A stretch of 39,864 bases of DNA from Lachnospiraceae bacterium (lineage in GTDB: Bacteria > Bacillota > Clostridia > Lachnospirales > Lachnospiraceae), in assembly GCA_017542245.1 (NCBI GenBank), contig JAFXXN010000032.1, forward strand, positions 1-39,864, in the 5' to 3' direction. Shown piece after piece: positions 3,702-20,196 of this stretch. A program made the position numbers and the translations under genes. Position 1 is the stretch's first letter. The number at the start of each line of letters is the position of its first letter. The notes under the pieces were generated by a model, which worked only from the letters and a program-made list of their open reading frames with translations, had not been told where the DNA came from and made no database searches.

Positions 3702-4106
3702 TTAATCTTCGTTGTTATGATTGCACTCAAGATATGTTTCAACTTCATTTATATCTGTTCCTACATCGGCAATTACACAAACATCTCCGAGACCGATATT
3801 ATCTGTACGGTTGTTCCAATAATTATATCTGATCCTGATAGTATCTGTCCCTGAGCCGCTTAAATATGTTCCGTTTGATGATGAATACTCAACAGGAGCG
3901 GTAAACTTAACAACAAGGATCTGCTCGCTGCTGTTGTGGCCTGCATCATGATGAGCATTAACCTGGAATCTGAAATCACCTCTTCCGGTCTGAGGAATCT
4001 GATGTCTGGAAATTGTTACAGAATAGCAGTTTCCGCTGCCTGTAGCATATACGCCCTCAGCCATCTCATCGCTGTCAAGAATTACGGGACTAACATAATT
4101 TTTCAT
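3702..4106 (-). CDS. Small leader-bearing protein, candidate exported matrix/peptide component
   Basis: A 134-residue protein with no standard signal peptide. Its first 25 residues (MKNYVSPVILDSDEMAEGVY then ATGSG) are polar/acidic and end in a Gly-Ser-Gly, like a RiPP or double-glycine-type leader. I recall similar starts (K-Y-x-x-P...EGVYAxSG) on small proteins of gut Firmicutes, but could not check this. The body (about 26-128) is beta-rich with many T, S, N, G residues. It has Cys27 at its start, Cys110 and Cys128 near its end, and a late YNYWNNRTDNIGLGD stretch. This layout resembles cellulose-binding CBM2 modules (terminal cysteines, W-N..I..G near the end), which is a weak pattern match. 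It has its own consensus promoter and terminator and follows the Pel-like operon, whose ends encode a PqqD-like and a PF14907-type protein. Real gene: clear RBS (AGGAG, 7-base spacing). Function unproven. Confidence 0.8.
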   Translation of the reverse strand: MKNYVSPVILDSDEMAEGVYATGSGNCYSVTISRHQIPQTGRGDFRFQVNAHHDAGHNSSEQILVVKFTAPVEYSSSNGTYLSGSGTDTIRIRYNYWNNRTDNIGLGDVCVIADVGTDINEVETYLECNHNNED

Positions 4107-4192
4107 AATTATACTCCTCTCTTTTTGTCAATTTTCCTTACCGGTTTCCCGGTCCCCTCTTTTTTACATGTCGGTTTATCTCCCCCGACGGT
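4107..4192 (-). other. Structured 5' leader of the small protein mRNA
   Basis: Between the predicted transcript start (about 4192) and the ATG lie two hairpins. One has stem GTCGG/CCGAC (4170-4189) with a ten-base loop. The other has stem ACCGG/CCGGT (4140-4153) capped by a GAAA tetraloop on the RNA strand. An AGGAG ribosome binding site (4114-4118) follows. The layout does not match the c-di-GMP-I riboswitch consensus. The hairpins may stabilise the mRNA or bind a protein or ligand. Confidence 0.5.
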
Positions 4193-4198
4193 ATGGAG

Positions 4199-4235
4199 AT
4201 TATAACAAAATAATATTGCATTGTCAAGTGCAATA
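4199..4235 (-). promoter_or_regulatory. Consensus sigma-A promoter with operator-like repeat
   Basis: Perfect -35 TTGACA (plus-strand 4222-4227) and perfect -10 TATAAT (4199-4204) are separated by the ideal 17 bases. Seven-base inverted arms TATTGCA (4214-4220) and TGCAATA (4229-4235) flank the -35 exactly, which is what a repressor operator would look like. The downstream gene is therefore probably expressed strongly and independently of the polysaccharide operon. Confidence 0.8.
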
Positions 4236-4281
4236 CCCTAACAAACGATATTTTTAACAAAAATGTAAGAATTGTGAACTG

Positions 4282-5514
4282 TCATTCAAACAAATGCAAT
4301 CCCTTAACCCTTTTTGCTCTTTTCCCCGCATTCTGCAGTAATTCCTTGCTTGATACCGAACGTACCTTCCTGTTATTCCTTAAAAAACGTACCAAAGTTA
4401 TTGTCCATAGAACCGGCCAAAACAGGAACACTTTACCTGCCTTAGGGAAATTAAGATGCATCTGATGATGAAACTCCCTGACATAATCAAAAAGCCCGTT
4501 TCCTCTAAGGGCAACCATTCTTCCTTTACTTTTTCCGAACTCCTCCGCCTCCATGAGTTCTTCCATGAAAAGATCTATCTCTTCTTCCTGTTCCTCACGG
4601 TTCTTTCCCTTCTCAAACGGAGACATCCACATAACACTTTCTCTCTTCAAACCGAGATACTTTATGCAGCAGATGGTTATCATATCGGAAAACCCTTTTA
4701 TTCCACTGTCATTCACCATTTTAAGATACTGCTGCCGTTCTTCTTCATTAAGCCCGCGGTTCCAAAGAACGACCCAGTCACAGAGCAGCTTAACTCCGAA
4801 CCCTGCCCTTAAAAAATGCTGAAGCATATGAAGTAAAAGCTCATAGGCATGATAAGCATCCTCCAATACCGGAAGCATAGTCCCCATAATCTCTCTTTTT
4901 CTGATATGGTTACCGCATTCCGGGATCAGTTTTTCCAGATATCCGTTTATCTTGGAATTATCAAACGGTTCCGCAAGCATAGTGTGAACCTCTATTTCCA
5001 TTCCGTTTTTATCAGACATGGAAATATGGTGAAGGGAATGCTGTTCTTCATCTTTACTAAATCCCAGCTTTTCAATCTCCCTTACGGCATTTTCGGCTGT
5101 CTTAATATCAGTCAGAAGAATATCTATGTCTCCTGCTTTTCTTAAATCCGGAACAGGAAAGTCGGCTGCAGCAGCCATACCCTTCATAATACAGAAACTT
5201 ATTCCGGATTTTCCAAGGATTTCTGTAAGCTGCTTATTTATTATAAGCATCCGGTAATTACCTCTTACTATAATACGCGAATAAGAGATCAGTTCCTTCC
5301 TGCTGTTATCCGGGATATCCGGTACCCGTTCCAAAATATCATATAACAGTCCTGCAACACTGTTTCTTATTGCAATCCTAATAATCTCTTTCCAGTCTTC
5401 CGGTTTTATATCGGAGAGGAACCCTGAAAGTTCCTCATCGATAACTTCAGAAGTCTTGTCCTTTGTATCCAGAGCTATTTTTAACAGCCCCAGCAGATAA
5501 CCGAATGAAGTCAT
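4282..5514 (-). CDS. Nucleotidyltransferase family protein (PF14907, NTP_transf_5 type)
   Basis: A 410-residue protein of the uncharacterised nucleotidyltransferase family NTP_transf_5. The hallmark segments are visible: K111-G (IMKGMAAAADFPVP), the metal-binding GDIDIL with D129 and D131, and a later IEVHTML (E174) supplying the third acidic position. The C-terminal third is helical with a hydrophobic stretch (FLFWPVLWTITLVRF, about 365-380), suggesting membrane association. Members of this family are often found beside PqqD-like proteins and in lasso-peptide and other RiPP loci, where their reaction is not settled. Here it is the last gene of the Pel-like operon, about 50 bases after the large membrane protein gene and directly before the leader-bearing protein gene. 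Possible substrates are that protein, a lipid carrier or a sugar. Family assignment is firm, function is not. Confidence 0.8.
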   Translation of the reverse strand: MTSFGYLLGLLKIALDTKDKTSEVIDEELSGFLSDIKPEDWKEIIRIAIRNSVAGLLYDILERVPDIPDNSRKELISYSRIIVRGNYRMLIINKQLTEILGKSGISFCIMKGMAAAADFPVPDLRKAGDIDILLTDIKTAENAVREIEKLGFSKDEEQHSLHHISMSDKNGMEIEVHTMLAEPFDNSKINGYLEKLIPECGNHIRKREIMGTMLPVLEDAYHAYELLLHMLQHFLRAGFGVKLLCDWVVLWNRGLNEEERQQYLKMVNDSGIKGFSDMITICCIKYLGLKRESVMWMSPFEKGKNREEQEEEIDLFMEELMEAEEFGKSKGRMVALRGNGLFDYVREFHHQMHLNFPKAGKVFLFWPVLWTITLVRFLRNNRKVRSVSSKELLQNAGKRAKRVKGLHLFE

Positions 5515-5564
5515 ATTCCTATAACTCCTTATTATTTTATGAATTCAACAACTCTAAAGTATTA

Positions 5565-8150
5565 CTATTTTCCTTCCAGTACTCCTTCATCGTAATCGAA
5601 CATCCACTCTCTATAGTCTTCAGGCCAAATAGGCTCTTTGTAGTCCTCCGGAGGAACCATGACCGAAGTATCCATTGTTGCCAGTTCGTAAAGATTTCTC
5701 TGATTTTGGATCAGATAATAGCATATAAAATCCTCATCCTCATAATATACATGAAGCTCATTGGGGTACATAGCATTAAATTTCTGGCACCATACATATA
5801 TTTTCGAATTAAGGATAGTCCTCTGCCATAAGGAACCATATACATTAATGTTCTCCCAGAATGTTCCGAAGTACAGATTTGCCATGTCCTCGCTTATGGT
5901 CATCTTCCTGAGATTATCTCCTTCACTTTCCTTACCCGGATAGCATACCGTATATCTTGAATTCACTGCCAGCCAATCGGGTCCTAAGAAGAAATGATCC
6001 TGATTTCTGTACAGTGCATTTTTCTCAACAAATATGAATATATACGGAGTAGGAATCGTGTAACTTACATGCTCGGACTCGTTTATAAAGTGAACCAGCT
6101 CCTCATGGTACCCTTTACCCATTATCTGATACAGCTCGTCTGTGGAAGAAACGATCGTATATGTTTCATCATCAAGAGAACTTACTATCTGTTTTGTTAT
6201 CATAGCCGTATCGTTATATCTTGTAAGCTGGTATAACAAATAACCATGGAAATTTCCTGTAATCCTTACAATCGCATAAACTGCGATCAATAATCCTGTT
6301 ACTATGATGTTCTGAACAAAATTAGGAAGCCATTTTTTAAACAGGCTTACTAAAAAGTCAACCGGAACAATAACTGCCGGGACTGCAACCATAATCGATA
6401 AAGTATCAATTCTGTATGGTTCCATAAGGAAGGGAAGTCCCATCTTCTGTGAACAGGCAAAAAGATGAACTGTCACTCCCGATAAAGCCATTATCAGATA
6501 GCCCATATGCATATTCTGCCCAACAGATTCCTTTTTTATCTTCGCATAAACAAGTCTTACCAAAGGGGCAGCACAGCCTATAAGCAAAGTCAGCAGCATA
6601 AATGAGAAATAGAAATTACCCCGGGCTTCTAAATGACCACTCCCCCAGTATCCTGTTTCCAAAAGCATAGTTCCGAAATTCTTTATAGGCTCCGTAACGC
6701 TTTGCAGCAACGAGATAAATGTCGGAGAAGCAGCTACGCTACTTGTGGCAACAGGGTTTCCGTAAATGTACTCCCCACTGTATGCAGTTTGGGCTGTTTC
6801 CTCTTTTTTACTTTCTGTATCCGCTTCGGTAGTTTCCTTCTCTTCTCCGGCAGTTGAAGCATCTTCCGAAGCACCTTCCTCCGATACCGTTACCTCATCC
6901 GGATCGCTGGGCATAAAATAACTCATAGCCCAGTTAAGAGAGTAATTAAGCTCTATTCCGCTTATAAAACAGATTACCAGAGGTCCTACCGAAATTACCA
7001 TTCCCAAGATAACAGATACAATCAAAGGCACCAGTTTCCTTGTTAATACTTTATGTATCAGCGCAAAAGCTATTCCCAGGCAAAGATAGAATGCCATGAT
7101 AGTATCATAGAAATGAATATTTACAGTTCCTGCCAAAGCCAAAGTAAAAATCAAAAGATTCTCATCTTTTAAGCAAAGCGGGAAGCGGATTTTTAATGTT
7201 TTTTTCAAAAAAGGAATCTTAATTGACGTTTTCTCCGCTTGTTTTTCTTCCTTGGTCTTTTTATTTACAACACTGAACCTCAGATACCTGATAAGATAAG
7301 TCCCACAGAACAACAATATCGAATAGCCGAATTCCATAGGTAAAGGCCATTGCATTCGGGCAACGGTAAATATCTGGTTACCATCCTGACAGTCGATAAC
7401 GAGGAAAAATAACAACGCCAATAAGGGAGAATACTTCCAAGTAAACATCTCCCGGAAAAACATAAATAAAGAGAGTATAGTCAAAAAGATAGTTATAGAA
7501 CCGGTAAAAAGAACGGAACTGTACAGATTTACCCCGGTAAGCATGGTCTGGGCAGCAATAAAGAAATGCATTCCCTCAGGATATATACCGCTTGAAAAAA
7601 GAGTGCCTGTAGTCAGATCATAGGACCACATACAGTGAACATATACATCACCGCAGCCAAACGAATAATCATGAAAAGCTCCATAAGTAAAATATATTAC
7701 TCCGAACATTAATACGATAAATAAAGCAATATACTCAAACCAGTGGCCTTCCATGAATTTAAGAAAAGCTTTCCAAAATTGTTTTATTTTGTTTCCTATA
7801 AATTTGAATACATCGGAAACCATAGTTTTGAAGCCATATGTTCCGCCTACAAAACATTTTAACCGTTTGATTGTTTCCCGGTTGATCCTTTTCCCTTTAA
7901 AAATGGAATAGAAGAAAACTCCGTAAAACAAAATACACAATACCCATCTGTTAAGCAAGTTTACAAGTCCGAGGAATGTCATGGTAAGACTTATCAGAGT
8001 TATCATAACCACACAGCAGAATGCAAACCTGTACGATCTCGATTTTGTTTTAAGGTGTGACCTAAAAACAACCATAGGCCAGATAAACATAATAAATGCA
8101 TATACTACAAACACATGTAAATATTGAAAAAACCAATATAATGTATCCAC
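5565..8150 (-). CDS. Large polytopic membrane protein, probable GT-C-type glycosyltransferase
   Basis: An 861-residue protein with four N-terminal membrane helices (1-90), then about ten more between residues 135 and 630, and a soluble C-terminal domain of about 230 residues. The first extracytoplasmic loop contains FGCGDVYVHCMWSYD followed by SGIYPEGMHFF. Acidic residues in this loop, soon after a membrane helix, are typical of lipid-phosphate-sugar-dependent GT-C glycosyltransferases. This is pattern recognition only. Residues about 413-460 form an acidic low-complexity insertion rich in E, T, S and A, probably a flexible loop on the outer face. Within the Pel-like operon it could polymerise, decorate or export the glycan, functions otherwise missing because no PelB/PelC is encoded. 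I cannot name the family with certainty. Confidence 0.6.
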   Translation of the reverse strand: MDTLYWFFQYLHVFVVYAFIMFIWPMVVFRSHLKTKSRSYRFAFCCVVMITLISLTMTFLGLVNLLNRWVLCILFYGVFFYSIFKGKRINRETIKRLKCFVGGTYGFKTMVSDVFKFIGNKIKQFWKAFLKFMEGHWFEYIALFIVLMFGVIYFTYGAFHDYSFGCGDVYVHCMWSYDLTTGTLFSSGIYPEGMHFFIAAQTMLTGVNLYSSVLFTGSITIFLTILSLFMFFREMFTWKYSPLLALLFFLVIDCQDGNQIFTVARMQWPLPMEFGYSILLFCGTYLIRYLRFSVVNKKTKEEKQAEKTSIKIPFLKKTLKIRFPLCLKDENLLIFTLALAGTVNIHFYDTIMAFYLCLGIAFALIHKVLTRKLVPLIVSVILGMVISVGPLVICFISGIELNYSLNWAMSYFMPSDPDEVTVSEEGASEDASTAGEEKETTEADTESKKEETAQTAYSGEYIYGNPVATSSVAASPTFISLLQSVTEPIKNFGTMLLETGYWGSGHLEARGNFYFSFMLLTLLIGCAAPLVRLVYAKIKKESVGQNMHMGYLIMALSGVTVHLFACSQKMGLPFLMEPYRIDTLSIMVAVPAVIVPVDFLVSLFKKWLPNFVQNIIVTGLLIAVYAIVRITGNFHGYLLYQLTRYNDTAMITKQIVSSLDDETYTIVSSTDELYQIMGKGYHEELVHFINESEHVSYTIPTPYIFIFVEKNALYRNQDHFFLGPDWLAVNSRYTVCYPGKESEGDNLRKMTISEDMANLYFGTFWENINVYGSLWQRTILNSKIYVWCQKFNAMYPNELHVYYEDEDFICYYLIQNQRNLYELATMDTSVMVPPEDYKEPIWPEDYREWMFDYDEGVLEGK

Positions 8151-8184
8151 GGTTCCCTCCAGGCTTTATTGCCTAAATCAATAA

Positions 8185-9486
8185 CTATTTTATTTCGCCA
8201 AGACAGCACATCCCGTCTTCGGTCACTCCTGTATTGGCAAACCCTACCCTCGCTTTAGATTCAACCTGTTCCGCGAACAGATAAATCTTCCCGGGTAATG
8301 GCGAGATTTCCATCATAAATGTTTTTGAAGATGATTTTCTGCACATTTGAAGTTCCTCTTCAAAAACCCCTGTCTCTTTTCCGTTTTTCCCCTCATACTC
8401 TATATAAAGCTTTGTCCTGTTATACATATCCGCAAAGCCTGTATTCGCTATCGTAACTTCTAACCTGCAGCCACTCTCACATTTATAAGCTGATACATCC
8501 TTTACAATAAAGCGATACCCGAGATGTGCACCTATATAATCCAGAACAGATTTTCCGTTCCATAAATCTCTTCCTTTGTGTATCTCTTTTCCCCAAAACT
8601 TTATCAGCTTTATATCATGATATCGGTTTAAATAAGTTATTCCCTGCCTTCTTAATTCCGATATATACTCATCCGCGCTGTGCCTTGCTGCAAAACCCTC
8701 TCCAAACAGAGCCTCTCCGCCGCAAGGTGCAGCCTCTGAAATCTGTTTTATAAAATCTGTTTCCTGTTCTCTGCCCCAGGGTTTTCCCCAGCCATGCCGA
8801 TTGTTCCCCGAAATATCGAATGTACCTAGGTCAGTATCCGAACCGAACATACCGTCATTATATATACCCAGCCCGTCAACGATCAGAGGTTTACCCTCAT
8901 CAGGCTGGATCCTTAAATATCTCCATTGAACCGGCTTTCTGACAGCCATAAATACCCTGTCTTTTATTTCTTCCTTAAAGATATACCCCAGTTCCCTCAA
9001 TCTGTCTTCTGCAGCATACCGGGTAGTATGCATCTCTCCCCATTTTCCGACAAGAAGCCCCTGATAAATAAATATATCCTTATAATGATTACTTACAAAT
9101 TCCGCAACCTGTGCCGCATGATCCTTCACCATTCCAAAAAAAGAAGGTTCTCTTTCCATCCCGTTACCGTCATGATCATAAGCTACTCTTAAGATTATAT
9201 CCTTCCCCTTACTCCTTAAATAGTTTATTATCATCTCCAGATGAGAAAACGCAAGAACATCAAGCCTTATGTCTCTATAGGCTCCGATATCCGCCAATAC
9301 AAGCACAAGGCTTATGTCCCTTTCAAGAATATATTTTTTTTCTGAAAAATCCGGCTCTTCATCTATACAGGCAGTGATCAGTTGAAACCAGCCTCTGCAA
9401 GGATTTACTGTATTATCAACCGCTTCACTGAATTCAGCTCTTTTAAACGCCCTGTATCTATTTAGAGTCTGCAGCAACTTTATCAT
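8185..9486 (-). CDS. DUF4874/DUF4832-like putative glycoside-active protein
   Basis: A 433-residue protein. Its first 270 residues resemble a TIM-barrel of the DUF4874 type, with NPCRGWFQL near residue 28 (family: NPxRG), LRVAYDHDG, YQGLLVGKWGEMHTTR and, later, DGMFGSDTDLGTF. The last 150 residues (GYRFIVKDVSAYKCESGCRLEVTIANTGFADMYN) match the beta-sandwich DUF4832 pattern. Such pairs are usually secreted and suspected to cleave or bind polysaccharide. Here no signal peptide is evident at the chosen start, which overlaps the upstream GT2 gene by 29 bases and has an AAGGGG ribosome binding site. A cytoplasmic location would be odd for a hydrolase. It may act in trimming or quality control of the polymer; that is inference. 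Confidence 0.65.
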   Translation of the reverse strand: MIKLLQTLNRYRAFKRAEFSEAVDNTVNPCRGWFQLITACIDEEPDFSEKKYILERDISLVLVLADIGAYRDIRLDVLAFSHLEMIINYLRSKGKDIILRVAYDHDGNGMEREPSFFGMVKDHAAQVAEFVSNHYKDIFIYQGLLVGKWGEMHTTRYAAEDRLRELGYIFKEEIKDRVFMAVRKPVQWRYLRIQPDEGKPLIVDGLGIYNDGMFGSDTDLGTFDISGNNRHGWGKPWGREQETDFIKQISEAAPCGGEALFGEGFAARHSADEYISELRRQGITYLNRYHDIKLIKFWGKEIHKGRDLWNGKSVLDYIGAHLGYRFIVKDVSAYKCESGCRLEVTIANTGFADMYNRTKLYIEYEGKNGKETGVFEEELQMCRKSSSKTFMMEISPLPGKIYLFAEQVESKARVGFANTGVTEDGMCCLGEIK

Positions 9487-10252
9487 ATACGGCCCCTTCT
9501 GAATCGCTGTGGAACAGCCTTATCCTGACCCAAACTGCTATGATAGAGTACATCATTCTTATCATATAAAGAATAGGTTTTAACCCTGAATGCATACTGG
9601 TTCCTTCAGTTCTAACATGCATAACTGCAGGAACTTCCACAATATTATATCCTAAAAGCTGCATCTGAAGGATCATATTGGCATCCGGATACCTGTCGTC
9701 AAAATGATTAAACTGGGAGTAAAAATAAAATGCACGGCGGCTTAACCCCTGAAGGCCTGTGGTTGGATCCGTAACCTTCTTATGCCCGAAGAGTCGGATA
9801 AGGAATTTAAACAGCTTAATCGCAATTTTCTTTGCAAAACCGATCTTAAACTCAGTAGCACCTTCAACAAATCTGGACCCAAGAACAATATCCGGAGTGT
9901 TTCCCTTTTCATCTTCCTTCTTCAGCGCATCATAAAGAGTAGTAATATTTGAAATGTCATGCTGTCCGTCAGCATCCATCTGAATGACATATTTATAAAA
10001 ATTTCTGGCGGCATATTTATATCCAAGCTGCAGACCGCTGCCGTATCCTAAGTTAAAAATATGGGTAACAACTCTGTATCCGCGGGCACGCACCAGTTTG
10101 CCGGTTCCATCCTTTGAAGCATCATTCATTACAAGAATATCCGCCCACTGGGTGATGCCGGCTTCTTCCATACTGTCAAGAAGCTTACCTATGGTTTTTA
10201 CCTCATTATATGCCGGAATAATGATCAAAAGCTCATTCCTTTTTTTCTCCAC
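9458..10252 (-). CDS. GT2-family glycosyltransferase (dolichol-phosphate mannosyltransferase-like)
   Basis: A 264-residue GT-A-fold enzyme of family GT2. It shows the nucleotide-binding start IIIPAYNEVKTI, the acceptor-side VMNDASKDGT, the metal-binding QMDADGQHD, and a downstream DPTTGLQGLSRRAF segment typical of DPM1-like enzymes that load a sugar onto a polyprenyl-phosphate carrier. No C-terminal membrane helices are seen. A lipid-linked sugar made here would be a natural donor for the GT-C-like membrane protein encoded two genes downstream. Its product sugar cannot be read from sequence. The DUF2304-like gene, a frequent partner of such GT2 enzymes, is two genes upstream. Confidence 0.85.
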   Translation of the reverse strand: MEKKRNELLIIIPAYNEVKTIGKLLDSMEEAGITQWADILVMNDASKDGTGKLVRARGYRVVTHIFNLGYGSGLQLGYKYAARNFYKYVIQMDADGQHDISNITTLYDALKKEDEKGNTPDIVLGSRFVEGATEFKIGFAKKIAIKLFKFLIRLFGHKKVTDPTTGLQGLSRRAFYFYSQFNHFDDRYPDANMILQMQLLGYNIVEVPAVMHVRTEGTSMHSGLKPILYMIRMMYSIIAVWVRIRLFHSDSEGAVYDKVAADSK

Positions 10253-10269: not shown

Positions 10270-11469
10270 TTAAATGTCCAACAACTTGCTTAAAGAATCC
10301 TCGTTTTCGTTTCGTTTCAAAGCATTTTTTGCAATAAACTCTCGTTTTTCGGAGTTTTTAATAAGTTCATCAACTGCTTTAGCAATGCTCTTAGGATTAA
10401 AGTCGCAGATAACTCCGTCCTCCCCGTCATCTACCTGCTCCCTGTTTCCGCTGCAGTCTGAAACTACTATCGGCTTTCCTAAAATCTGTGCTTCCTGAAT
10501 TGCAATACTCTTGCCTTCAAATTTACTGCAGTGTACATAAATATCGGCCTGTCTTAAATACGGATACGGATTATCAACCGCCCCATACAAAATAAAATCT
10601 TCCTTCAAGTCAAGCTTATCAATAAGAGCTTCAAGTTTCTTCCTCTCTTCTCCCTCGCCCAAAACATACCATTTGACATTTCTTCCGCATTTTTTCAATA
10701 TGCTGCAGGCTTTTATGGAAACCTCAAACGCCTTTTGTCTCATAAGCCTTCCTATTGTAAGCAGCCTGATACCTTCAAATCCGTCTTCGAAGCCTTCGCC
10801 GTTTTTAGATTTTTCCCTGATTCCTTCCACATCCAAAAGATTATGGAAGACTCCAGTTTTTTCTTTAAGCTCAGGATATACCTGCTTAAATACATCCGCA
10901 ACCTCATCGGATACACCGAAAATCCTGTCAAACTTAAGATAACAATCCCGGTCCAGTTTTCTTGTATATCCGGCCTCTTTATAATCAATATGAATAAATG
11001 CCGCTTTCTTCTTTGCTTTAACATGATCGCAGACATAATATGCAGACGCACCCTCGATATACGCTACTGCCAGATCATATGTCTTTTTGCTCCTGGGAGC
11101 TCCGTCCGAAATAACTCTCCACAGGAGTTTTTCAGGCAGTATCCTGCCTTTTTTTATCATATCAAGCCCGTTTTTTATGAGATAAGGAAAGTTTTTTATC
11201 AAAGCGCCTTTACTTAAAGACGATTTAATAACAGTCTGAAGCAGATACTTTCTTCCTTCTCCCGTATGAACAGACGCAGAATTAAAACTCTTATTTAAAA
11301 GATTTATTCCAGGAGGAAGCTTATCTATCATTTCGCCCTGTCCTGTCAGAACATAAAGCGAAACTTCATATCTTTCCTTGTCAATCCTTCTTAACAGCTC
11401 CAAAAGAGCATTTTCGGCACCGGCTCTGCCCATGGTATTAATGACAAACAATAATCTCTTTTTTCTCAT
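10270..11469 (-). CDS. GT4-family glycosyltransferase
   Basis: A 399-residue GT-B-fold enzyme. It has the N-terminal NTMGRAGAENALLELL glycine-rich loop (GGAE-like, here RAGAE), a C-terminal LLTIGRLMRQKAFEVSIKAC segment that begins the nucleotide-sugar domain, and the retaining GT4 E-x7-E signature in KFEGKSIAIQEAQILGKPIV. The enzyme should be cytoplasmic and transfer an activated sugar to a growing glycan or lipid carrier. The start codon overlaps the end of the DUF2304-like gene by four bases, indicating translational coupling. The donor sugar is not predictable. Together with PelF and the GT2 it gives this operon three glycosyltransferases, so the glycan is probably more complex than a homopolymer or carries a lipid-linked primer. 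Confidence 0.85.
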   Translation of the reverse strand: MRKKRLLFVINTMGRAGAENALLELLRRIDKERYEVSLYVLTGQGEMIDKLPPGINLLNKSFNSASVHTGEGRKYLLQTVIKSSLSKGALIKNFPYLIKNGLDMIKKGRILPEKLLWRVISDGAPRSKKTYDLAVAYIEGASAYYVCDHVKAKKKAAFIHIDYKEAGYTRKLDRDCYLKFDRIFGVSDEVADVFKQVYPELKEKTGVFHNLLDVEGIREKSKNGEGFEDGFEGIRLLTIGRLMRQKAFEVSIKACSILKKCGRNVKWYVLGEGEERKKLEALIDKLDLKEDFILYGAVDNPYPYLRQADIYVHCSKFEGKSIAIQEAQILGKPIVVSDCSGNREQVDDGEDGVICDFNPKSIAKAVDELIKNSEKREFIAKNALKRNENEDSLSKLLDI

Positions 11470-11882: not shown

Positions 11883-13543
11883 TATTCATCACTGCCTTTC
11901 TTTTCTATCATAGCTGTTTCCTTATTCTCGGTAATCATTGCCTGTTCAGTTTTCTCGATAAGATCAGGCTTAACCGGTTCAGCTTTCTCCGTGTAATCAG
12001 GCTTTATCGGCTCGGTCATTTCCTCCTCTTCTTTGGAAACTATCGGTGCCATGCCCTCACTTTGTGCAAATTCTTCCACCGGATCCTCTTTCTTATCTAA
12101 ATAATTTCTGTCAAAAACTATATTTGAAGGAGCCTTTTTACCCGGTCCGCGGTCTAAGAGGTTACCGTTGCAGAAAATATGTACATCAAAGTGCTTTTCG
12201 ATGCTCCTAAGTCTGAAGTATGCCACTGTAAAACCGACAAATGCACCGAAGATAAGACCGGTACCAAACCATATGGTTGTAAAATGACATGATACTATAC
12301 TTCCCAAACATGTCGCCGCACAGAAGCTGAATGCCGCTCCTATAGATCCTTTAAGATCGTTAAAGTAATAAAGGAACAATAACTCACTGTACATTAGGAA
12401 CATTATAAAGTATCCTGCTGCAAGACAGGGATAAATCTGAAGTATCACGCCTCCAAATCCAAACATCGGCATAAGTATGATAAATATCAGATACAGAATA
12501 ACCGTAACGATAAACTGCAGTCGGACCATATTCATGATCTCTTCCTTCAGCTGTTCAAACATACGGAGCTTTGCATTGGAAATATCCATTCCTCTTCCGC
12601 CGATAACCGCTTCCGAATATCTTTTATATTTTTCATGGAAATTCATTTCCATCTTGGATATGAATATAACACTGGCGGAAATATTGGTAAACATCGCAAG
12701 ACATGTTGCCATATCATAAGTAGGCATACATACGAACGAATCGGCAACCACCATCCTCATATCCGTAGTCCAGAACACAAAGTTATGAATGTAAAGACCT
12801 AAAGTATAGAGGAAATTGGTGACAACCAGCTGCCAGTATTTCTTAAAATAATGAAATACCGCCCGATAAGCACCGCTGTTTACTCGGAAATAACTTCTGA
12901 CAAGCGCCATCTCCAAAGTTGCCGTAAGGGCAAATCCGATATCAAGTCCAAGAAGCATTGCAAGGGTGGTTCCCATTCCGAAAACCTTGGCAAATATAAA
13001 CGATAACGCAACAGCCAAAGCCATTCCGAAAAGGAAATACAGCGAAATGCGTCCATAATCCTTACAGATTGAAAGATACAGCATGGAATAAAATACAAGA
13101 ACCAGAGCCATAAACCCGCAGAATCCGGAAAAAACAAATACCGCTCCAACTTTCCCGACTACAAATTCCCAAATACAGAATATCGTACCTACTATAAAGC
13201 TGAATCCTACGTTAAGAACCAGTCCCACATAATAGCAGGGAAGAATGTCATCATATCGTTCCTCGTAAATCGTATCCGAAAGATACCTTGAAAGCACCGC
13301 GTTAAACGGAGATGCGGTAAGCAATCCGAAAATGAAAATATAAAGAACGGTACATGCATACAACTCACGGCTGAAATAATCAAGCTTTGAAAACCCCAGC
13401 AGAAGCTGCATGATTATTATTGCAGCGATAACGAGGATCATCGGGGCTATGGTAATTATAGTACTGTATCCGAAGCCCACAAGGTTCGTAGTTATGGTAT
13501 TTTTACTGTAAATTTTGTTTAGTTTAACGCCTATACCGGCCAT
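11882..13543 (-). CDS. pelG: PelG-like polysaccharide transporter/synthase membrane subunit
   Basis: An integral membrane protein of the MOP flippase superfamily with about twelve helices, recognised from its start MAGIGVKLNKIYSKNTITTN and the overall PelG pattern. In Pel systems PelG works with the cytoplasmic glycosyltransferase PelF, as part of a PelDEFG membrane complex, to make and move the polymer across the membrane. I place the start at the ATG at 13543 (553 residues) rather than the in-frame TTG six bases upstream. The family begins MAGIG, an AGAGGA-type ribosome binding site sits eight bases ahead, and pelF stops two bases before. After the last helix there is a cytoplasmic tail of about 110 residues ending in imperfect repeats of EPxKPDxxEKxE, low in complexity and absent from the classical protein as I recall it. 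Confidence 0.88.
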   Translation of the reverse strand: MAGIGVKLNKIYSKNTITTNLVGFGYSTIITIAPMILVIAAIIIMQLLLGFSKLDYFSRELYACTVLYIFIFGLLTASPFNAVLSRYLSDTIYEERYDDILPCYYVGLVLNVGFSFIVGTIFCIWEFVVGKVGAVFVFSGFCGFMALVLVFYSMLYLSICKDYGRISLYFLFGMALAVALSFIFAKVFGMGTTLAMLLGLDIGFALTATLEMALVRSYFRVNSGAYRAVFHYFKKYWQLVVTNFLYTLGLYIHNFVFWTTDMRMVVADSFVCMPTYDMATCLAMFTNISASVIFISKMEMNFHEKYKRYSEAVIGGRGMDISNAKLRMFEQLKEEIMNMVRLQFIVTVILYLIFIILMPMFGFGGVILQIYPCLAAGYFIMFLMYSELLFLYYFNDLKGSIGAAFSFCAATCLGSIVSCHFTTIWFGTGLIFGAFVGFTVAYFRLRSIEKHFDVHIFCNGNLLDRGPGKKAPSNIVFDRNYLDKKEDPVEEFAQSEGMAPIVSKEEEEMTEPIKPDYTEKAEPVKPDLIEKTEQAMITENKETAMIEKKGSDE

Positions 13544-13545
13544 AA

Positions 13546-14997
13546 TCAATTCCTCTCAAGTTCTTTTACCCTTTTAGGGAAATTAATCTCAAATGTCTTG
13601 TTGTAAAGTTCTTTATAAGTTGCCTGCATCTGCCCTAACTGATACTTAGCCTTGCAGCGTTTATAACCGACTTCACCCATTTCTTTAACCTTTTCGGGAT
13701 TTCTTGCCAACTCGATCATAGCCTCGGCAAGCTCCTCGGTATTCATTATATGAGTAAGTATTCCGGCCTCTCCGAGTTTATCCTCGCCTTCCCCGAAAAT
13801 CAGTCCGGCACAGTTTCCTACATCAGTTGCGATAACAGGTTTCTTTGCCGCAAAGCCTTCAAGAATGGTAAGAGGCTGTCCTTCGCTTATACTGGTAAGG
13901 ATCGTAAAATCCATTCTTCCGATATACTCGGTAACATTTATCCTGCCGGTGAAAACGACATCATGAAGATTAAGTATTTCAACAATTTCAAAACACTCCT
14001 GAGCATATTCCTCATCCTCGTCGGTCGGTCCCATTATCCAGAGCTTAAGATTCGGAACGATCATTTTTGCGAATGAAAAGGCTCTTATCATAGTCTTAAC
14101 ATCCTTTATAGGCGTTACCCTGAGTATCGCACCGATATTTATAAACTTCTTATCTTCCTCGGTTTTCCCGTTAATATAGGCAAATCTGTCCATATCTATG
14201 CCGTTTGCCGTTATCATTATCTTACTCTCATTACATCCGAGCTCGATCTGGAGCTCCTTTGCATGACCGTAAAGAGCTGTAACTACATCGGCTTTATCAT
14301 AAGCTAAGACTGCCATTTTTTTGAACTGATCTATCCAGATATTCTTATAAATACCTGCTACCCATGTAGCCTTTATAAGCTCTTCTTCTCTTTCTCTTGC
14401 ATAAATACCATGCTCTGAAAGGATCAGTCCGCACTTAAATCTTGACTTTGCCATTCCTCCGAGAACTCCCGCATATCCCGTCGCAACACAGTGATAAATA
14501 TCCGCTTTGGGTATCTCTGTCTTTAAGATCAGGAACAGCGGCATATAGATAGACCGCATAGTCCACAGGAAGTCGGAGAAATTTATCTGGGTAAATCTTT
14601 TATCATAGAGTTCCTGAACGATATGCAGGAAGTCAGCTCCCATAAGCAGATCGTCTATTGAAAAATCCTTTTCAAACAGCTTGAAAACAGTATCCCAGTC
14701 AGGCGTATCATTCATAATGATACTTCTGAGAGCATTGTAATACTTTTCTCCAAAATGTGTTCTTCTTCCTGTCTTCGGCTTTTTTCCCCAGTCAAAATCA
14801 CTTAAATATGACTCATATACGGCCACAACATTTTCAGGAAGTTCATATGCAAATTTAGCACTCTGCTCCCTGTCGGCAATAATGGACAGGATAACAAATT
14901 CATGTTCCGGGAAGGCTTTTACCATACTGTGAACCCAGCCGGAAACACCTCCGACAACATATGGGTAACAACCTTCAGCTACTATACATATTCTCAT
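13546..14997 (-). CDS. pelF: PelF-like glycosyltransferase
   Basis: A 483-residue GT4-type glycosyltransferase with the diagnostic PelF start MRICIVAEGCYPYVVGGVSG followed by WVHSM. The C-terminal domain includes NIGAILRVTPIKDVKTMIRA and the donor-binding EGQPLTILEGFAAKKPVIATD region with the E-x7-E pair. In characterised Pel systems PelF uses UDP-activated N-acetylhexosamine to polymerise the chain on the cytoplasmic side, together with PelG. The gene has a GGAG ribosome binding site and lies 30 bases after the DUF2194-like gene and 2 bases before pelG. Recognition of the family is strong. The exact monomer here is unknown. Confidence 0.9.
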   Translation of the reverse strand: MRICIVAEGCYPYVVGGVSGWVHSMVKAFPEHEFVILSIIADREQSAKFAYELPENVVAVYESYLSDFDWGKKPKTGRRTHFGEKYYNALRSIIMNDTPDWDTVFKLFEKDFSIDDLLMGADFLHIVQELYDKRFTQINFSDFLWTMRSIYMPLFLILKTEIPKADIYHCVATGYAGVLGGMAKSRFKCGLILSEHGIYAREREEELIKATWVAGIYKNIWIDQFKKMAVLAYDKADVVTALYGHAKELQIELGCNESKIMITANGIDMDRFAYINGKTEEDKKFINIGAILRVTPIKDVKTMIRAFSFAKMIVPNLKLWIMGPTDEDEEYAQECFEIVEILNLHDVVFTGRINVTEYIGRMDFTILTSISEGQPLTILEGFAAKKPVIATDVGNCAGLIFGEGEDKLGEAGILTHIMNTEELAEAMIELARNPEKVKEMGEVGYKRCKAKYQLGQMQATYKELYNKTFEINFPKRVKELERN

Positions 14998-15027: not shown

Positions 15028-16818
15028 TTAGTCAAACGGTCCGTCATAGTGATATACTTCTTCGGATTCCTTTAAGGTTATAACAGTCTGCCCTGCCTTT
15101 ACCCTAAGCATATAAGCATCCGTTTCTATACGGGTATACTCTGCATTATCCGATATGCTGTCTATCTCCATATCGTGTGTTCTGAATATGAAAAAGTTTT
15201 CATCAGCACCGGTGCTGTTAAGTATAATCTTATTTCCTTCCTTAGATACATCGTATTTGACGCTCAGCATCTTTCTGATACGGGCATCACTCTCCGAAAT
15301 CGTCGTCGTATCAAAGACAAGTCTGTTTGACCAATATGTAGTTACATAACTAAATACATGATCAAACAAATTCTGCCACTCATCTTCCTTTGTCTCCGGC
15401 CATATAGCCTGATTCATATCAACCAGAAGATTTGTATATCCGAGAGACGTAAGCAGGCTCTTATACAAAAGCGCATTTTTATAAGAGAATTCGCTTGCAA
15501 CATTTGTAGTATACTGAAGCGTAACATTTTCGCTGCAGAAAGAAATTGCCTGATCGTTTCCCCTTACACCGCCTACAACTGTTCTTATCTGAGGTTCCTG
15601 TTCTTCGAGTACTTTTTTGAGATCATCATTCCAATTTTTAATATACAGACTTCTGAACTCATAATTAATCCCGGCGTTTTTATAAAACTCTCGGCTCAGT
15701 TCAGACTTCTGGGCAAGGGTGATATCACCTTTATAATCCATTGAACGGCCCGCTTCGGCATTAAGTTCCTTCATCTGCTGGAGATAAAAAGCAACCTCAT
15801 TTTGCTGCGCATCGACAGAAGTTTCATAATCATATCTGTCCGACATAAAACAGGTCATGTCAAACTCACTTCTTGATGACATTGAAATAATTCCGGGCCA
15901 TGCAATATCTCTTTGGAAAGCTTCAGCATTTCGACTGTAGATTTCTTTAAGCTTTTCGGAATTTTCCTCCGAAAGATAAGGGAAATCAGCAAAAACAACA
16001 CTGTTTGCATTAACAATCGGGTAAATATAATATTCTTTTGTATCATACATCATGCAGTGAAGGAATCCGATTCCCATCATGCCCTGAAGATAATCTCCGT
16101 TTACGGAATATACAAAAGTTCCATTATAATAGCTTCTCCAGACCATCTTAGGAAAATCGTAAGGACTTACACGGTCTTCATCCATAATACCTACAATATA
16201 TGTTTTCGTACCAAGACCTGTATCATACCAGGCTATGTCACGATCCAGATCTTCAAACTTTTTCTCTTCCTCCGTATTTGCAAGGAATACCGCTTCCCCG
16301 CCAAGAAGGAATCCGTCAAAAATCTGAACGCCTTCTACATGAACATTCGGATCCACAACCTTTGTAATACCGAGAAGCGTCTTTAAGTTTTCATCCTTAT
16401 CCACATATTCAGGATCCGGAAGAGTTCCAAAGATCATAACTGCATGCATATCCGCAAGTTTAAGTATCTTATATGTTTTATGCTGCATATCAAAAGTTGA
16501 CGGGTCAAATACGATAGCCGATACATTCGAATTAAGCTCGGGTTCTGGTATTTCCGAGAATACCTTTAATCCCTGCCTGGTATAAGTACACCACTGGCTT
16601 ACAGCATCTCCGACACCACCGTTAATATCACCTACAAACCAGACTACACTGTCCGGATCCACTACGGGAACGTCGGAAGCCTTCAGATCAACCTCAACAA
16701 CATGCTCATTCACATCATAATTATTTCCCTGAGCCTTCATGACCTGTGAAAACTGAAAAATAAAGCATATGGTCAGCATCATCAGGAAAATACTGAAAAA
16801 TTCTCTTTTAGAAAGCAT
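15028..16818 (-). CDS. DUF2194-like exported protein of the Pel-type operon
   Basis: A 596-residue protein with one N-terminal signal/anchor helix (KREFFSIFLMMLTICFIFQF) and a long extracytoplasmic region. Residues 50-130 look like a Rossmann-like or glutamine-amidotransferase-like domain (VVWFVGDINGGVGDAVSQW). The middle, with WPGIISMSSRSEFDMTCFMSD, looks like a degenerate barrel. I recall DUF2194 proteins occurring beside pelF/pelG in Firmicutes. Its place between pelE and pelF is where pelA (deacetylase/hydrolase) lies in the Gram-positive pel operons I know. It may therefore do the PelA job, but no clear polysaccharide-deacetylase metal triad (D..H-x3-H) was found. A structural role in export or anchoring is equally possible. 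Confidence 0.65.
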   Translation of the reverse strand: MLSKREFFSIFLMMLTICFIFQFSQVMKAQGNNYDVNEHVVEVDLKASDVPVVDPDSVVWFVGDINGGVGDAVSQWCTYTRQGLKVFSEIPEPELNSNVSAIVFDPSTFDMQHKTYKILKLADMHAVMIFGTLPDPEYVDKDENLKTLLGITKVVDPNVHVEGVQIFDGFLLGGEAVFLANTEEEKKFEDLDRDIAWYDTGLGTKTYIVGIMDEDRVSPYDFPKMVWRSYYNGTFVYSVNGDYLQGMMGIGFLHCMMYDTKEYYIYPIVNANSVVFADFPYLSEENSEKLKEIYSRNAEAFQRDIAWPGIISMSSRSEFDMTCFMSDRYDYETSVDAQQNEVAFYLQQMKELNAEAGRSMDYKGDITLAQKSELSREFYKNAGINYEFRSLYIKNWNDDLKKVLEEQEPQIRTVVGGVRGNDQAISFCSENVTLQYTTNVASEFSYKNALLYKSLLTSLGYTNLLVDMNQAIWPETKEDEWQNLFDHVFSYVTTYWSNRLVFDTTTISESDARIRKMLSVKYDVSKEGNKIILNSTGADENFFIFRTHDMEIDSISDNAEYTRIETDAYMLRVKAGQTVITLKESEEVYHYDGPFD

Positions 16819-16829
16819 TTTTCACCTCA

Positions 16830-17744
16830 TCATGTAAAAACTCTTATAAGCTCGAGAGTTTCTTTATCAATAACTGTGGGAGAAGCCTTCAGTTCATCTA
16901 TTACCCTGAAGAAATCATCCCTGCGGTTCATGGCAAAGAAAAGTTTCAGCTGAACCGTAAATGAAGAAAGTGCCTGCGGCCAATGGATTCTTGCCCTCTC
17001 GGCCCATTTTTCACACTTTTCAAAATCTTCAACTCCGAGAAGCCTTAAACAGATCTTCTCAAACTGTTCACTCTCGATAGAATCAGCTTCACCCATATAA
17101 AGGATTTCAGCTACAGTTTCCATTATTCCGACATAATTACGCTGTTCCATCTCAATAAATACCTTTTGAGACAAAACCTGATCCATATAATCAATCAGAT
17201 TTCTGCACTTTTCATATTTATTGGGATCGTCTTCCATGATCGCTTTATATTCCTTATCCACCACGGTTCTGAAATCATTTAACGCATCCTGAAGAACCGA
17301 TGCTGCATAATGCGCGGTCTCGGTATCCTCGCTGTTTAACGCCAGTGTGATCGAAGCAAGTGAATTTTTAATGTCATTGCTGACAACATTCATCATCAGA
17401 GTACGAAGATCTTGTCTTCCTGTGATAGCTATCGCCTCTTCCAAAGGTATCATGTTTCTCTCTTTATCTTCCTCAGCCTTTGTTTCAAACTTAGGATGAT
17501 CCTTACCGAAAATAACGTCTTCCAGATCTACCGGTGCCGACATGAATACCTTGTACCATAAATATGATAAACCGAAGAAAACAACTCCGACTACCGGGGT
17601 AAGAGCCATAACAACAGCTTTTATCAGGATGCTCTTTTCCTTGTTAAGCTTAATTATCACATTGAACACGTAATAAACAACGACCGCGATCAAGTTAAGA
17701 ACTATAAGTGTTATTATCAGGATACTCTGTCCGGTCGTAGACAT
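16830..17744 (-). CDS. pelE: PelE-like membrane protein with helical repeat domain
   Basis: A 304-residue protein with two N-terminal membrane helices (about 8-30 and 41-65), then a cytoplasmic, all-helical region (about 100-300) that looks like TPR-type repeats. This is the PelE architecture: two helices plus TPR-like repeats, in the PelDEFG membrane complex. The start overlaps the end of the pelD-like gene by 28 bases and has a GGAGG ribosome binding site within that gene. A conserved-looking TLMMNVVSNDIKNSLASITLALNSEDTETAHYAA segment resembles the HEAT/TPR-like stretch seen in PelE-like proteins. Sequence conservation of PelE is low, so the call rests on topology and position. Confidence 0.72.
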   Translation of the reverse strand: MSTTGQSILIITLIVLNLIAVVVYYVFNVIIKLNKEKSILIKAVVMALTPVVGVVFFGLSYLWYKVFMSAPVDLEDVIFGKDHPKFETKAEEDKERNMIPLEEAIAITGRQDLRTLMMNVVSNDIKNSLASITLALNSEDTETAHYAASVLQDALNDFRTVVDKEYKAIMEDDPNKYEKCRNLIDYMDQVLSQKVFIEMEQRNYVGIMETVAEILYMGEADSIESEQFEKICLRLLGVEDFEKCEKWAERARIHWPQALSSFTVQLKLFFAMNRRDDFFRVIDELKASPTVIDKETLELIRVFT

Positions 17745-19924
17745 ACTATACCATCCTCCACTATCTCCGTATCAATTCCAAGTTTGTCAAAACGGCTCTT
17801 AACAAACTCTGCGTCATTCAAACTCGTGTTCGCAAGCAAAATCCTAAGTCCTCCATCGCTTAATCCCATGATATCGGACTGTCTTAAATGCTGATAAATC
17901 TTATCGCTTAACTGCTGAAGGGTCTCGCCTTCCTTTATCTTAACCTTAACAAGCACGCACTCTGCAAGTCCTTCCCTTTCCGCATTCTGGAATGCAGTAA
18001 GGAGCGGTCCGAATGCATCGGGTTCCAGTATCTTGGTACCCTCAATATACCTCTTCTCCTGAAGTGCCTGCAGATATCTTGCAGAGCGGACAACCGCACC
18101 CTTAATAAGAGCACTGATAACAACCAGCTGGTTGGCCTGGCCGAGAGTCATATTCTCCCAAGGAAGCGTCCATACAAGAAGAAGTATCAGCGGATGGCCG
18201 TCATCGTCAAAAATCATGTTAGCCATCATAGGTTTGTTCTCTTCCATCTTACGATTTATATAAACCTTATGGGTCATAAGAGTTTCATACATCTCGCCGA
18301 GAGTCTCACGGTACTTTACAGAGTTGCCGAGAGATCTTGCTTTCTTTGAAGTTGCAGAGAACAGTCTCATATAGCGATCATTTACAATATTGTAAATAGC
18401 CACATCCTTACTCTTAACCAATGTTGAAAGCATATCGGCAGCATAGAAGAGAACCTCTTCCGGACTGCGCTGATCAAGTGCCGATGTAATACTGTAAATC
18501 TTTCCTACACTGTCATTCTGGTTAATAAGCTGGGTTTCAAGGGCATCCTTAACACGCACGTTACTGCTGTTAATATCCTTCATGTCTCCAAGCTGCCCGG
18601 ACAAGAATTCCTTTTCTTCCTGGCTTTCCCGTTTCAGGCTTGTGATCTGGTCACGCATATAACCTACAACCAGTCCCAGGATGAATATCTGAGCTATCCA
18701 TACATAGGTGTTAGTATCAAGCATCAGTTCAAAACCAGTCTGGTCATACATCTGCCTGAAACAGTATCCGATCGTTGCCAGTACCGCGGAGAATACCGCC
18801 TGCTGCTGACCGTAAACAATAGCAAAGATAAGCACATACAAAAGATAGAAGTCGAGGTTGGCAAAATACTTGCTGTCCGCGGTTCTGTTATTTATCATAA
18901 AGAAAGGAATAAACACTATCAGATTCTCTATGAAAGGAATCAGAGCTTTTATCAGCCATCCGCCTCTCTCAAAAATTCTCTCAAAAATACCCTTCTTCTT
19001 CTCAATATCGTTCCAGAATGCAGGCTTATTCAGCTGCATAGTCCTGCAGATACGCTTTATTATACCCTCATCATTACAGTAATACTGTTTTCCGAACTCC
19101 TTAACAAATCTCTCGTTTGAAAGAACAATCCTCTTTTTATCACCGGGAAGGCTTAAAACCTGCGTCTCTGCACTTGAATACTGACGTACTATCTCAGCTA
19201 TCTCCGGCTCTGTTTTCTCATTCCCTGAAGAAATGTTGTAAAGGCTGTGCCTGCATTCGCCCGCAACAGCTACACGATAAATGAACTCAACGGCATCGGT
19301 CTCATATAATAAGGAAAATCTGCTGTTTTCATTTACGGTTATCTTCTTATTATCAAAAGCTTCCAGGCACATCTGCGATACTTTATCGCGGCATTCGCTT
19401 CTCTTCTTCGGAATACCGTAAACATGATCGAGTCGAAGTGTAATGATATCCTTTTCACGGCTTAAACGATAACTCTCACACATTTCCTCTGCCTGAGCCA
19501 AAAGCATGCTCCTTACTCCTATTGGTGTAGGTGCATCTTCTTCCGTGATGTTTTCATTACTGTTCATGTTAAAAACTTCATCCGATGAGAGATAAACAAA
19601 ACGTCCTTTGTTCTTCATCGCATAACTCATAAGTATGTTCATAAGACCTGACGAGTACTGTACTGCATCGGCCTCTTCATGATTCCACTTATAGTTTGTG
19701 TCATATGCGCCTAAGAATATGGTAAGGTCCATATTTATGCTTTCAAAAATCTCATTTAAGCATGCGCAGTCATAGGGGAAATTGTATCTCTCGAAAACTT
19801 TCTGGTAAGGCGCCTTTTCCTGGCGTGTTCCGGTAAGAAGGTACACTCTGTGTCCCTCTTTTTTGAATTTGATGATCAGGCTGTTGATCAGGCTTCCCGA
19901 TCCGCCTATAAGAAGTATGTTCAC
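17717..19924 (-). CDS. pelD: PelD-like c-di-GMP receptor fused to an N-terminal SDR/epimerase domain
   Basis: A 735-residue fusion. Residues 1-290 form a Rossmann-type SDR/epimerase domain (ILLIGGSGSLINSL, then FVYLSSDEVF and ITLRLDHVYGIP; the third glycine and the YxxxK pair are poorly kept, so it may be non-catalytic). Residues 320-422 hold four membrane helices. A coiled linker, a GAF domain (about 470-600) and a degenerate GGDEF domain (about 610-735) follow. The GGDEF core is replaced by SDGGLR, so cyclase activity is not expected. Just upstream, R681-Q-S-D684 is an RxxD motif at the inhibitory-site position, the c-di-GMP-binding feature of PelD. The gene starts with GTG, sharing GTGA with the stop of the PqqD-like gene, which fixes the start. 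Expected role: activate polymer synthesis when c-di-GMP is bound. Confidence 0.82.
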   Translation of the reverse strand: MNILLIGGSGSLINSLIIKFKKEGHRVYLLTGTRQEKAPYQKVFERYNFPYDCACLNEIFESINMDLTIFLGAYDTNYKWNHEEADAVQYSSGLMNILMSYAMKNKGRFVYLSSDEVFNMNSNENITEEDAPTPIGVRSMLLAQAEEMCESYRLSREKDIITLRLDHVYGIPKKRSECRDKVSQMCLEAFDNKKITVNENSRFSLLYETDAVEFIYRVAVAGECRHSLYNISSGNEKTEPEIAEIVRQYSSAETQVLSLPGDKKRIVLSNERFVKEFGKQYYCNDEGIIKRICRTMQLNKPAFWNDIEKKKGIFERIFERGGWLIKALIPFIENLIVFIPFFMINNRTADSKYFANLDFYLLYVLIFAIVYGQQQAVFSAVLATIGYCFRQMYDQTGFELMLDTNTYVWIAQIFILGLVVGYMRDQITSLKRESQEEKEFLSGQLGDMKDINSSNVRVKDALETQLINQNDSVGKIYSITSALDQRSPEEVLFYAADMLSTLVKSKDVAIYNIVNDRYMRLFSATSKKARSLGNSVKYRETLGEMYETLMTHKVYINRKMEENKPMMANMIFDDDGHPLILLLVWTLPWENMTLGQANQLVVISALIKGAVVRSARYLQALQEKRYIEGTKILEPDAFGPLLTAFQNAEREGLAECVLVKVKIKEGETLQQLSDKIYQHLRQSDIMGLSDGGLRILLANTSLNDAEFVKSRFDKLGIDTEIVEDGIVCLRPDRVS

Positions 19925-20196
19925 ATTGCCTCCTCTGTTATGGGCTTATACCCAAATTCCTTCAGCTGCATTTCAAAACCCACTATGTCACTAAGCACAT
20001 CCTCAGGCTTTGAATTGTATCTGTCCACTAGTATCTCTGCTATCTGAAGATTGGTTTTGCCTTTCTCCATCAGCTTGTAAATTTCTGCGCCCGTCTCATT
20101 CATAGGCAGCGGCTTCTTATATTGACCGATATCCTGTTCCATATCGATAAGCCAATACAGACCTACGGCCTTACGGAGCTGAAATCTGGCGCTCAT
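19921..20196 (-). CDS. PqqD-like protein (RiPP-recognition-element fold)
   Basis: A 91-residue protein with the PqqD pattern: a beta-strand start (FQLRKAVGLYWLIDMEQD), then PLPMNETGAEIYKLMEKGKTNLQIAEILVDRYN (the 'N..ga..i..ll..g.t..ei...l...y' helix-turn-helix core) and a C-terminal helix. PqqD-type proteins (RRE domains) bind leader peptides and deliver them to modifying enzymes. This is the first gene of the Pel-like operon, with an AAGGAAGGTG ribosome binding site, and its stop overlaps the start of the pelD-like gene. No radical-SAM or cyclase gene is present. Its natural partner may be the leader-bearing protein encoded at 3702-4106. It could instead be an adaptor with no peptide substrate. 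The family call is good; the partner is inferred. Confidence 0.8.
   Translation of the reverse strand: MSARFQLRKAVGLYWLIDMEQDIGQYKKPLPMNETGAEIYKLMEKGKTNLQIAEILVDRYNSKPEDVLSDIVGFEMQLKEFGYKPITEEAM

Follow-up and report, generated by a model that had tools for sequence, protein, structure and literature searches.

Why does an operon for a Pel-type exopolysaccharide open with a PqqD-type gene and close with one for a PF14907 nucleotidyltransferase (NTP transferase), and why is it followed by a 134-residue protein that starts like the precursor of a modified peptide? The locus lies in the window analyzed here, a 39,864-nucleotide contig (C89) of a Lachnospiraceae draft genome that comprises 4.72 Mb in 203 contigs, with 97% completeness and 8.6% estimated contamination; the contig ends 3.7 kb past the gene of the small protein. 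The locus is probably best explained by a system for ribosomally synthesized and post-translationally modified peptides (RiPPs) that has become an accessory of one Lachnospiraceae Pel lineage, serving there in the maturation and export of small folded extracellular proteins. Its relatives are the linear polyphosphorylated peptides (LPP) described in May 2026 (Nat Commun, Popov et al. 2026, PMC13381572). The parts in question are PqqD-type RiPP recognition elements (RREs), an HprK-like kinase fused to an RRE of its own, the NTP transferase, a SipW-like peptidase and an MsbA-like ATP-binding cassette (ABC) exporter.

The association with Pel is apparent from the distribution of the leader across genomes. 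One draw of 200 Lachnospiraceae genomes from 199 genera was surveyed with several queries; PelG is present over its cut-off in 35 genomes, PF14907 in 67 and PqqD in 100. The small protein is matched in nine genomes (E up to 0.0011, open frame), each with PelG on the same contig. A leader profile of 24 positions, built on 32 leaders attached to several kinds of core, finds 13 genomes at E ≤ 1.4e-5, and all 13 have PelG (p 1.7e-11; for this and the other co-occurrence counts, the genera should not be taken as independent samples). None of the other 187 genomes is matched at E 0.001, the next match being at 0.0042. The first-pass annotation had asked whether Pel, PqqD, PF14907 and the leader protein occur together in the family far above chance, and these counts show that they do. 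The converse fails, with 22 of the 35 PelG genomes carrying no leader. The idea that the leader is a motif common in the class was rejected, as credible matches among the 361 genomes of a class-level survey (E 0.001) occur in G000 (the source genome) and G022 only, with one doubtful match in G394 inside a frame of 2128 residues. Thirteen genomes of that survey have PelG over the cut-off, and the leader is absent from all nine outside the family and from two of the four inside.

A separate scan of a named genome collection for the small protein yielded 66 loci, mostly from Lachnospiraceae or its genera, and also from Olsenella porci and from metagenome-assembled genomes of Coriobacteriaceae, Oscillospiraceae, Thermoclostridium and Gastranaerophilales. 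Within the flanks examined, the exporter is encoded in 56 of these loci, the kinase in 47, the peptidase in 34 and the NTP transferase in 35; when only the 32 loci reaching 19.5 kb or more are counted, the corresponding numbers are 29, 27, 22 and 19. PelG was searched for in 45 of the 66 genomes; of the remaining 21, 16 have PelF/PelG in the locus and 5 were already surveyed as PelG-positive. It is present in 42 of 42 searched genomes with leader-type loci, a set that includes two loci cut by the contig end before the leader (L232 and L234, the former labeled as the same isolate as L223), and in none of the three genomes whose copy of the domain lacks the leader (L224, L228 and L229). Several leader genes lie on contigs other than those with Pel. 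In G096 (L269, G096:C13:35000-54000), the genes for the fusion kinase, the exporter and a leader protein of diverged sequence (AEGIYAGSG) are neighbors and PelG is absent; therefore the set can exist alone.

The stand-alone PqqD gene is part of the same pattern. Within 15 kb of PelG, it is found in 11 of 11 kinase-positive versus 2 of 23 kinase-negative PelG genomes (p 2.7e-7; table compiled by hand among the PqqD matches listed, leaving out G025, with a broken contig, and G177, with sub-threshold PelG, and with the PqqD of G043 taken from the comparison of Pel loci). PqqD near PelG follows the kinase, which argues that the operon PqqD is coupled in inheritance to the leader system. The PF14907 gene lies at this distance in 11 of 36 PelG genomes (hand count). 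A tree of PelG proteins from 30 of the 35 genomes over the cut-off, namely those whose locus had been extracted, splits into two deep groups, one of 11 rows without the leader and one of 19 rows, 13 of them with it; the leader label changes 4 times on this tree versus 10.1 times in shuffles. The simplest reading would be one gain of the leader system and few losses, with the system kept over deep divergence.

The leader itself was compared in 80 proteins, collected as loose-pattern matches that show both a Met close by and an EGVY-like end (82 proteins prior to the final filter). The expression specified an aromatic residue, a Pro two to four residues on and the EGVY-like end, leaving the Tyr, the exact spacing and the last position free. 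YxxPx[LVIFA] is present in 80 of 80 and takes the form Y4xxP7xI9 in the window. The loose pattern occurs in 107 of 10480 frames in the 66 loci, versus 18 of 10480 shuffled frames and 12 of 2912 frames of control loci; a tight version matches 76, 0 and 3 frames, respectively, and the control loci include two true leader loci (L013 and L020). LPP precursors measure 35-200 residues and carry a YxxPxVLxHQxIxFETxxS leader, according to the text of PMC13381572. The rest of this motif, xHQxIxFETxxS, is not matched by the window leader, whose second half is NEELAEGVYAASG and agrees in spacing, one hydrophobic residue, one Glu and the Ser. In the present system this half reads EGVYAASG, versus FETxxS in LPP, and because it differs, we file the window system as an LPP-like variant and not as a plain member.

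In all 80 proteins, a Ser follows EGVY at a distance of no more than four residues. The distance from Tyr to Ser is 19 residues in 75 of them, 18 in the LPP motif and 20 in the window. Since this is the sole Ser position common to unrelated cores, we propose it (Ser24 in the window) as the phospho-acceptor, by analogy with the LPP kinase, which puts phosphates on core Ser3 (text of PMC13381572). Phosphorylation of a C-terminal Ser, as in the lasso peptide paeninodin, was rejected as a general rule because the last residue is Ser in only 8 of 80 proteins. We also note short Cys-containing proteins of 79-82 residues with the variant leader NEGVYAASG/AEGVFAASG (L275:7340-7588, L116:7391-7630).

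Structure comparison by VIA-align gives the window core a fold like that of carbohydrate-binding module family 2 (CBM2). Its sequence has no useful match in Pfam, PDB sequences or NCBIfam; PF00553 (CBM2) does not match it, is listed for none of 49 homologues, and matches 4 of 10 other leader proteins weakly, below the threshold. Generally, the leader is attached to cores of several kinds, one class of which is small and Cys-rich. The leaderless copies from genomes without PelG are domains of two surface-type proteins of about 4,700 residues (L224:5963-20296, L228:6098-20305) and of a pilus-like protein (L229:5540-6457), which we take to be TadG-like.

The residues expected to grip the leader are conserved. 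N33 and D70 are invariant in 8 of 8 aligned stand-alone PqqD proteins, that of the window included under the same numbers, and align to the same residues of the LppB structure (PDB 9x8z, 9x8z_B); the paeninodin RRE (9x90) differs there. In LppB, these two residues hold the Pro and Tyr of the leader (text of PMC13381572). The kinase's own RRE keeps each equivalent residue in 28 of 30 cases. In relatives, the fusion kinase and the SipW-like peptidase are encoded near the leader gene; in the source genome, they lie side by side on contig C95, away from the small gene. The kinase family retains the P-loop (39/40), LHSxS (35/40) and NGDxN (40/40), the peptidase family GxSMxP (34/34), hHR (33/34) and GDN (31/34), and the NTP transferase family a DxD pattern (28/34). 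The C95 peptidase contains GxSMxP, LHR and GDN and matches the signal peptidase I model with E 8.3e-7, under the cut-off. Family distances of kinase and exporter correlate (Mantel rho 0.66, n = 42), as shared ancestry alone could also produce, and the Mantel values for kinase, exporter, NTP transferase and the GT2 glycosyltransferase are all positive (rho 0.47-0.66, no neutral control gene).

The first-pass annotation had reported the absence of a cyclase or radical SAM enzyme, and none is found among the 20 window proteins scanned (bases 99-24400). It went on to infer that the arrangement would be unusual and minimal, which is not borne out, given the fusion kinase and peptidase near the leader gene in relatives and on C95 here. 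Far from being minimal, the arrangement belongs to a known kind, an LPP-like pathway whose present variant is tied to Pel and has CBM-fold cargo. A PqqD-bearing protein of about 400 residues in relatives was considered as a radical SAM enzyme and discarded, as the scan shows no Cys motif and the protein is HprK-like. Contig C95 of G000 also carries a second PqqD gene close to a separate HprK-like gene at about 57.4-60.2 kb (L125, L138, L139), and the pair may belong to a lasso or LPP-type cluster.

The small gene and the exporter gene probably form one separate, strongly expressed transcription unit, as judged from the promoter-like site ahead of the former and the hairpin after the latter (Table 1). 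The small gene follows the NTP transferase gene by 175 bp, and the exporter gene follows the small gene by 100 bp. It had been proposed that the leader-bearing protein comes directly after the operon; the place is correct, but the gene is not the operon's tail, given its own promoter-like site and the 175-bp gap, and both this site and the adjacent exporter had been overlooked. Elsewhere, 47 of 79 leader genes have an upstream promoter-like match of at least 10/12, versus 27 of 281 upstream regions of other cluster genes and 24 of 395 shuffled regions. The first of these contrasts is skewed by the frequent position of leader genes at the start of a transcript, and the shuffles are the fairer control. 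The top NCBIfam models of the exporter are MsbA_rel and MsbA, both under the cut-off, and the Pfam/NCBIfam scan matched no peptidase domain in it.

A plausible course of events can be outlined from these parts. A strong promoter would drive the 134-residue precursor, whose YxxPxI motif would be gripped by two PqqD-type RREs, one standing alone in the Pel operon, the other fused to the kinase on C95. The kinase would phosphorylate the conserved Ser just past EGVY (Ser24), the PF14907 transferase may put a sugar on the phosphate, and the SipW-like peptidase, aided by an RRE, would cut the leader near EGVY. These three steps are modeled on LPP, where leader cleavage by the peptidase requires the discrete RRE (text of PMC13381572), and on pseudomycoidin, where the NTP transferase adds one or two hexoses to the phosphate (PMC8498205). 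Deletion of the LPP NTP transferase gene caused no change in a heterologous host (PMC13381572). Finally, the MsbA-like exporter would release the CBM2-like domain, which would bind or organize the Pel-type polymer in the matrix; the fold and the genome context point to this export route and role. The first-pass annotation had suggested that polymer synthesis is coupled to the recognition, modification or export of a small matrix protein. Co-occurrence and the signs of an RRE-guided route favor the coupling, whereas the designation "matrix protein" derives solely from the fold and the company of Pel.

In an extended version of this scheme, the conserved Ser beside the new N-terminus would receive a sugar through a phosphodiester bond made by the kinase and the PF14907 transferase, and this sugar would be joined to or extended by the Pel-type polymer, so that the exported CBM-fold protein is covalently tethered. 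We consider this very unlikely; if true, an RRE-guided RiPP pathway would here produce a conjugate of protein and glycan for the matrix. A different view would take the leader proteins for secreted antimicrobials or signals, bacteriocin-like RiPPs that sit on Pel islands by chance and have no matrix role. As is generally known, RiPP clusters usually include an RRE, a conserved leader, a kinase and an ABC exporter, and the small, Cys-rich class of cores would fit as well. LPP loci are also reported to show patchy patterns, resembling horizontal gene transfer, that are typical of conflict genes (text of PMC13381572). This interpretation is decidedly unlikely, however, considering that every leader genome found has PelG except G096, with its diverged leader, that the core has a CBM2-like fold recurring as a domain of large surface-type proteins, and that no immunity gene was recognized among the window proteins scanned.

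The role of the Pel-operon PqqD protein can be questioned separately. It might serve Pel synthesis, for example as a PelD regulator or scaffold, without contacting the leader, which only the kinase-fused RRE would handle; its gene overlaps pelD by 4 bp, the whole operon stands between it and the leader gene, and the kinase already has its own RRE. The association of PqqD with the kinase near PelG, the invariance of the YxxP-gripping residues and the need for a discrete RRE in LPP leader cleavage make this unlikely. It is very unlikely that a short peptide elsewhere is the true substrate of the kinase, NTP transferase and peptidase and that the small protein merely shares the exporter. The second PqqD and HprK-like pair on C95 would be compatible with such a division, as would the separation of kinase and peptidase from the small gene in the source genome, yet kinase, peptidase, exporter and leader protein are neighbors in relatives. 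The kinase/exporter correlation argues in the same direction, though shared ancestry could suffice for it.

The features of the locus are listed in Table 1. From the PqqD gene to the NTP transferase gene (20196 down to 4282), neighbors overlap or lie at most 50 bp apart, and the genes are therefore likely one operon. A minus-strand Pel operon with these first and last genes had been annotated before, and coordinates and Pfam/NCBIfam matches agree. The genes then named stand; omitted were those for the DUF2194 and DUF2304 proteins, two glycosyltransferases, the DUF4874/DUF4832 protein and the 861-residue protein. DUF4832 is a known accessory in streptococcal and clostridial Pel loci (text of PMC7112168). 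No deacetylase family is matched at the DUF2194 position, where a PelA-type deacetylase might be sought, and the PelE-like protein has no informative Pfam match. A variant Pel locus (L118/L119, G035:C1:2058000-2090000) has the NTP transferase gene directly ahead of pelD, and downstream it encodes a separate PqqD, an HprK-like protein of smaller size and an ABC exporter that is more distant (44% identity). Elsewhere in the window, a T-box leader (27028-27231, minus strand) precedes two genes that by eye resemble those for phosphoserine aminotransferase and a dehydrogenase, and a 456-residue protein (32210-33580, minus strand) begins with a signal-like segment and contains several CxxCG repeats that resemble zinc ribbons.

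Table 1. Features of the Pel locus and the adjoining small-protein/exporter unit, in window coordinates
Feature	Position	Strand	Basis
Stand-alone PqqD-type RRE (LppB-like), first Pel operon gene	19921..20196	-	PF05402, 34.4 bits (cut-off 23.4)
PelD-like, N-terminal short-chain dehydrogenase/reductase (SDR)/epimerase, RxxD (RQSD) in C-terminal part	17717..19924	-	Pfam and motif scan
PelE-like membrane protein	16830..17744	-	Position; homologues of 21-55% identity in the Pel loci compared
DUF2194 protein in the place of PelA-DA	15028..16818	-	PF09960, E 3.5e-13
PelF glycosyltransferase	13546..14997	-	NCBIfam PelF NF038011, 375 bits (cut-off 100)
PelG exporter	11882..13549	-	PF16933, 485 bits, over curated cut-off
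DUF2304 small protein	11466..11882	-	PF10066, E 4.8e-9
GT4 glycosyltransferase	10270..11469	-	PF00534
GT2 glycosyltransferase	9458..10252	-	PF00535
DUF4874/DUF4832 protein	8185..9486	-	PF16173, PF16116
861-residue protein without Pfam match	5565..8150	-	Homologues present in related Pel loci
PF14907 NTP transferase (LppN-like)	4282..5514	-	120.8 bits (cut-off 31.2)
Sigma-70-type promoter-like site TTGACA-17-TATAAT ahead of small gene	4227-4199	-	12/12 consensus
Leader-bearing 134-residue precursor: YxxP leader at residues 1-20, Ser24, core from ~26	3702..4106	-	Leader profile, fold comparison
MsbA-like ABC exporter (LppD-like)	1820..3601	-	PF00664 and PF00005
Terminator-like hairpin after exporter gene, 16 pairs then T-rich tail	1771-1736	-	Sequence scan

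With LPP, as set out in the text of PMC13381572, the system shares a discrete RRE, an HprK-like kinase, an NTP transferase, a SipW-like signal peptidase I and an MsbA-like exporter, as well as the YxxPx leader, variable C-termini, a conserved Ser near the cut site and frequent company of polysaccharide loci. The differences are the RRE fused to the kinase, EGVYAASG in place of FETxxS, a window core that folds as a CBM2-like domain, the location of the stand-alone RRE within the Pel operon, and the tie of the set to a single Pel lineage of Lachnospiraceae. The examined text does not state whether LppN itself belongs to PF14907. The main text of that paper lacks the strings "clostridi", "Lachnospiraceae", "carbohydrate-binding" and "cellulose"; "Pel" was not searched for, and the supplements may hold some of these loci. 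In the open-licence literature, no description of a PqqD/kinase/leader set tied to Pel appears among the matches listed, no paper contains the string EGVYAASG, and for LPP terms only the LPP paper is relevant. LPP loci often lie within capsule regions, and their role is not known, a link to biofilms being only speculated (PMC13381572). A pathway of this type that follows a Pel cluster and presumably acts on carbohydrate-binding-fold proteins would give LPP-type systems a concrete job, make their role testable and tie a recently described peptide modification to biofilm building.

The paeninodin and pseudomycoidin lasso peptides likewise involve an HprK-like kinase that phosphorylates Ser, an NTP transferase and a PqqD-type RRE (PMC8498205); unlike lasso clusters, the window encodes no macrolactam cyclase or B2 peptidase among the proteins scanned. 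From Gram-positive Pel loci (pelDEADAFG, text of PMC7112168), the operon retains PelD with an epimerase-like N-terminus, PelE, PelF, PelG and the DUF4832 accessory. It departs from them in the added PqqD, PF14907 and leader proteins and in having DUF2194 where PelA-DA is expected; the main text of PMC7112168 contains "nucleotidyltransferase" once and "PqqD" not at all. Compared with these systems, RRE-guided leader recognition would here be extended from short peptides to folded extracellular domains.

The PEP-CTERM system relies on an exosortase and belongs to a Gram-negative setting. Like PEP-CTERM/EpsH (PMC1569441), the present set has a presumed protein-sorting signal that tracks exopolysaccharide genes across genomes. 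The sorting domain there is C-terminal, whereas here an N-terminal leader is combined with an RRE, a kinase and an ABC exporter in Bacillota. This suggests an N-terminal counterpart, in Bacillota, of exopolysaccharide-linked PEP-CTERM sorting.

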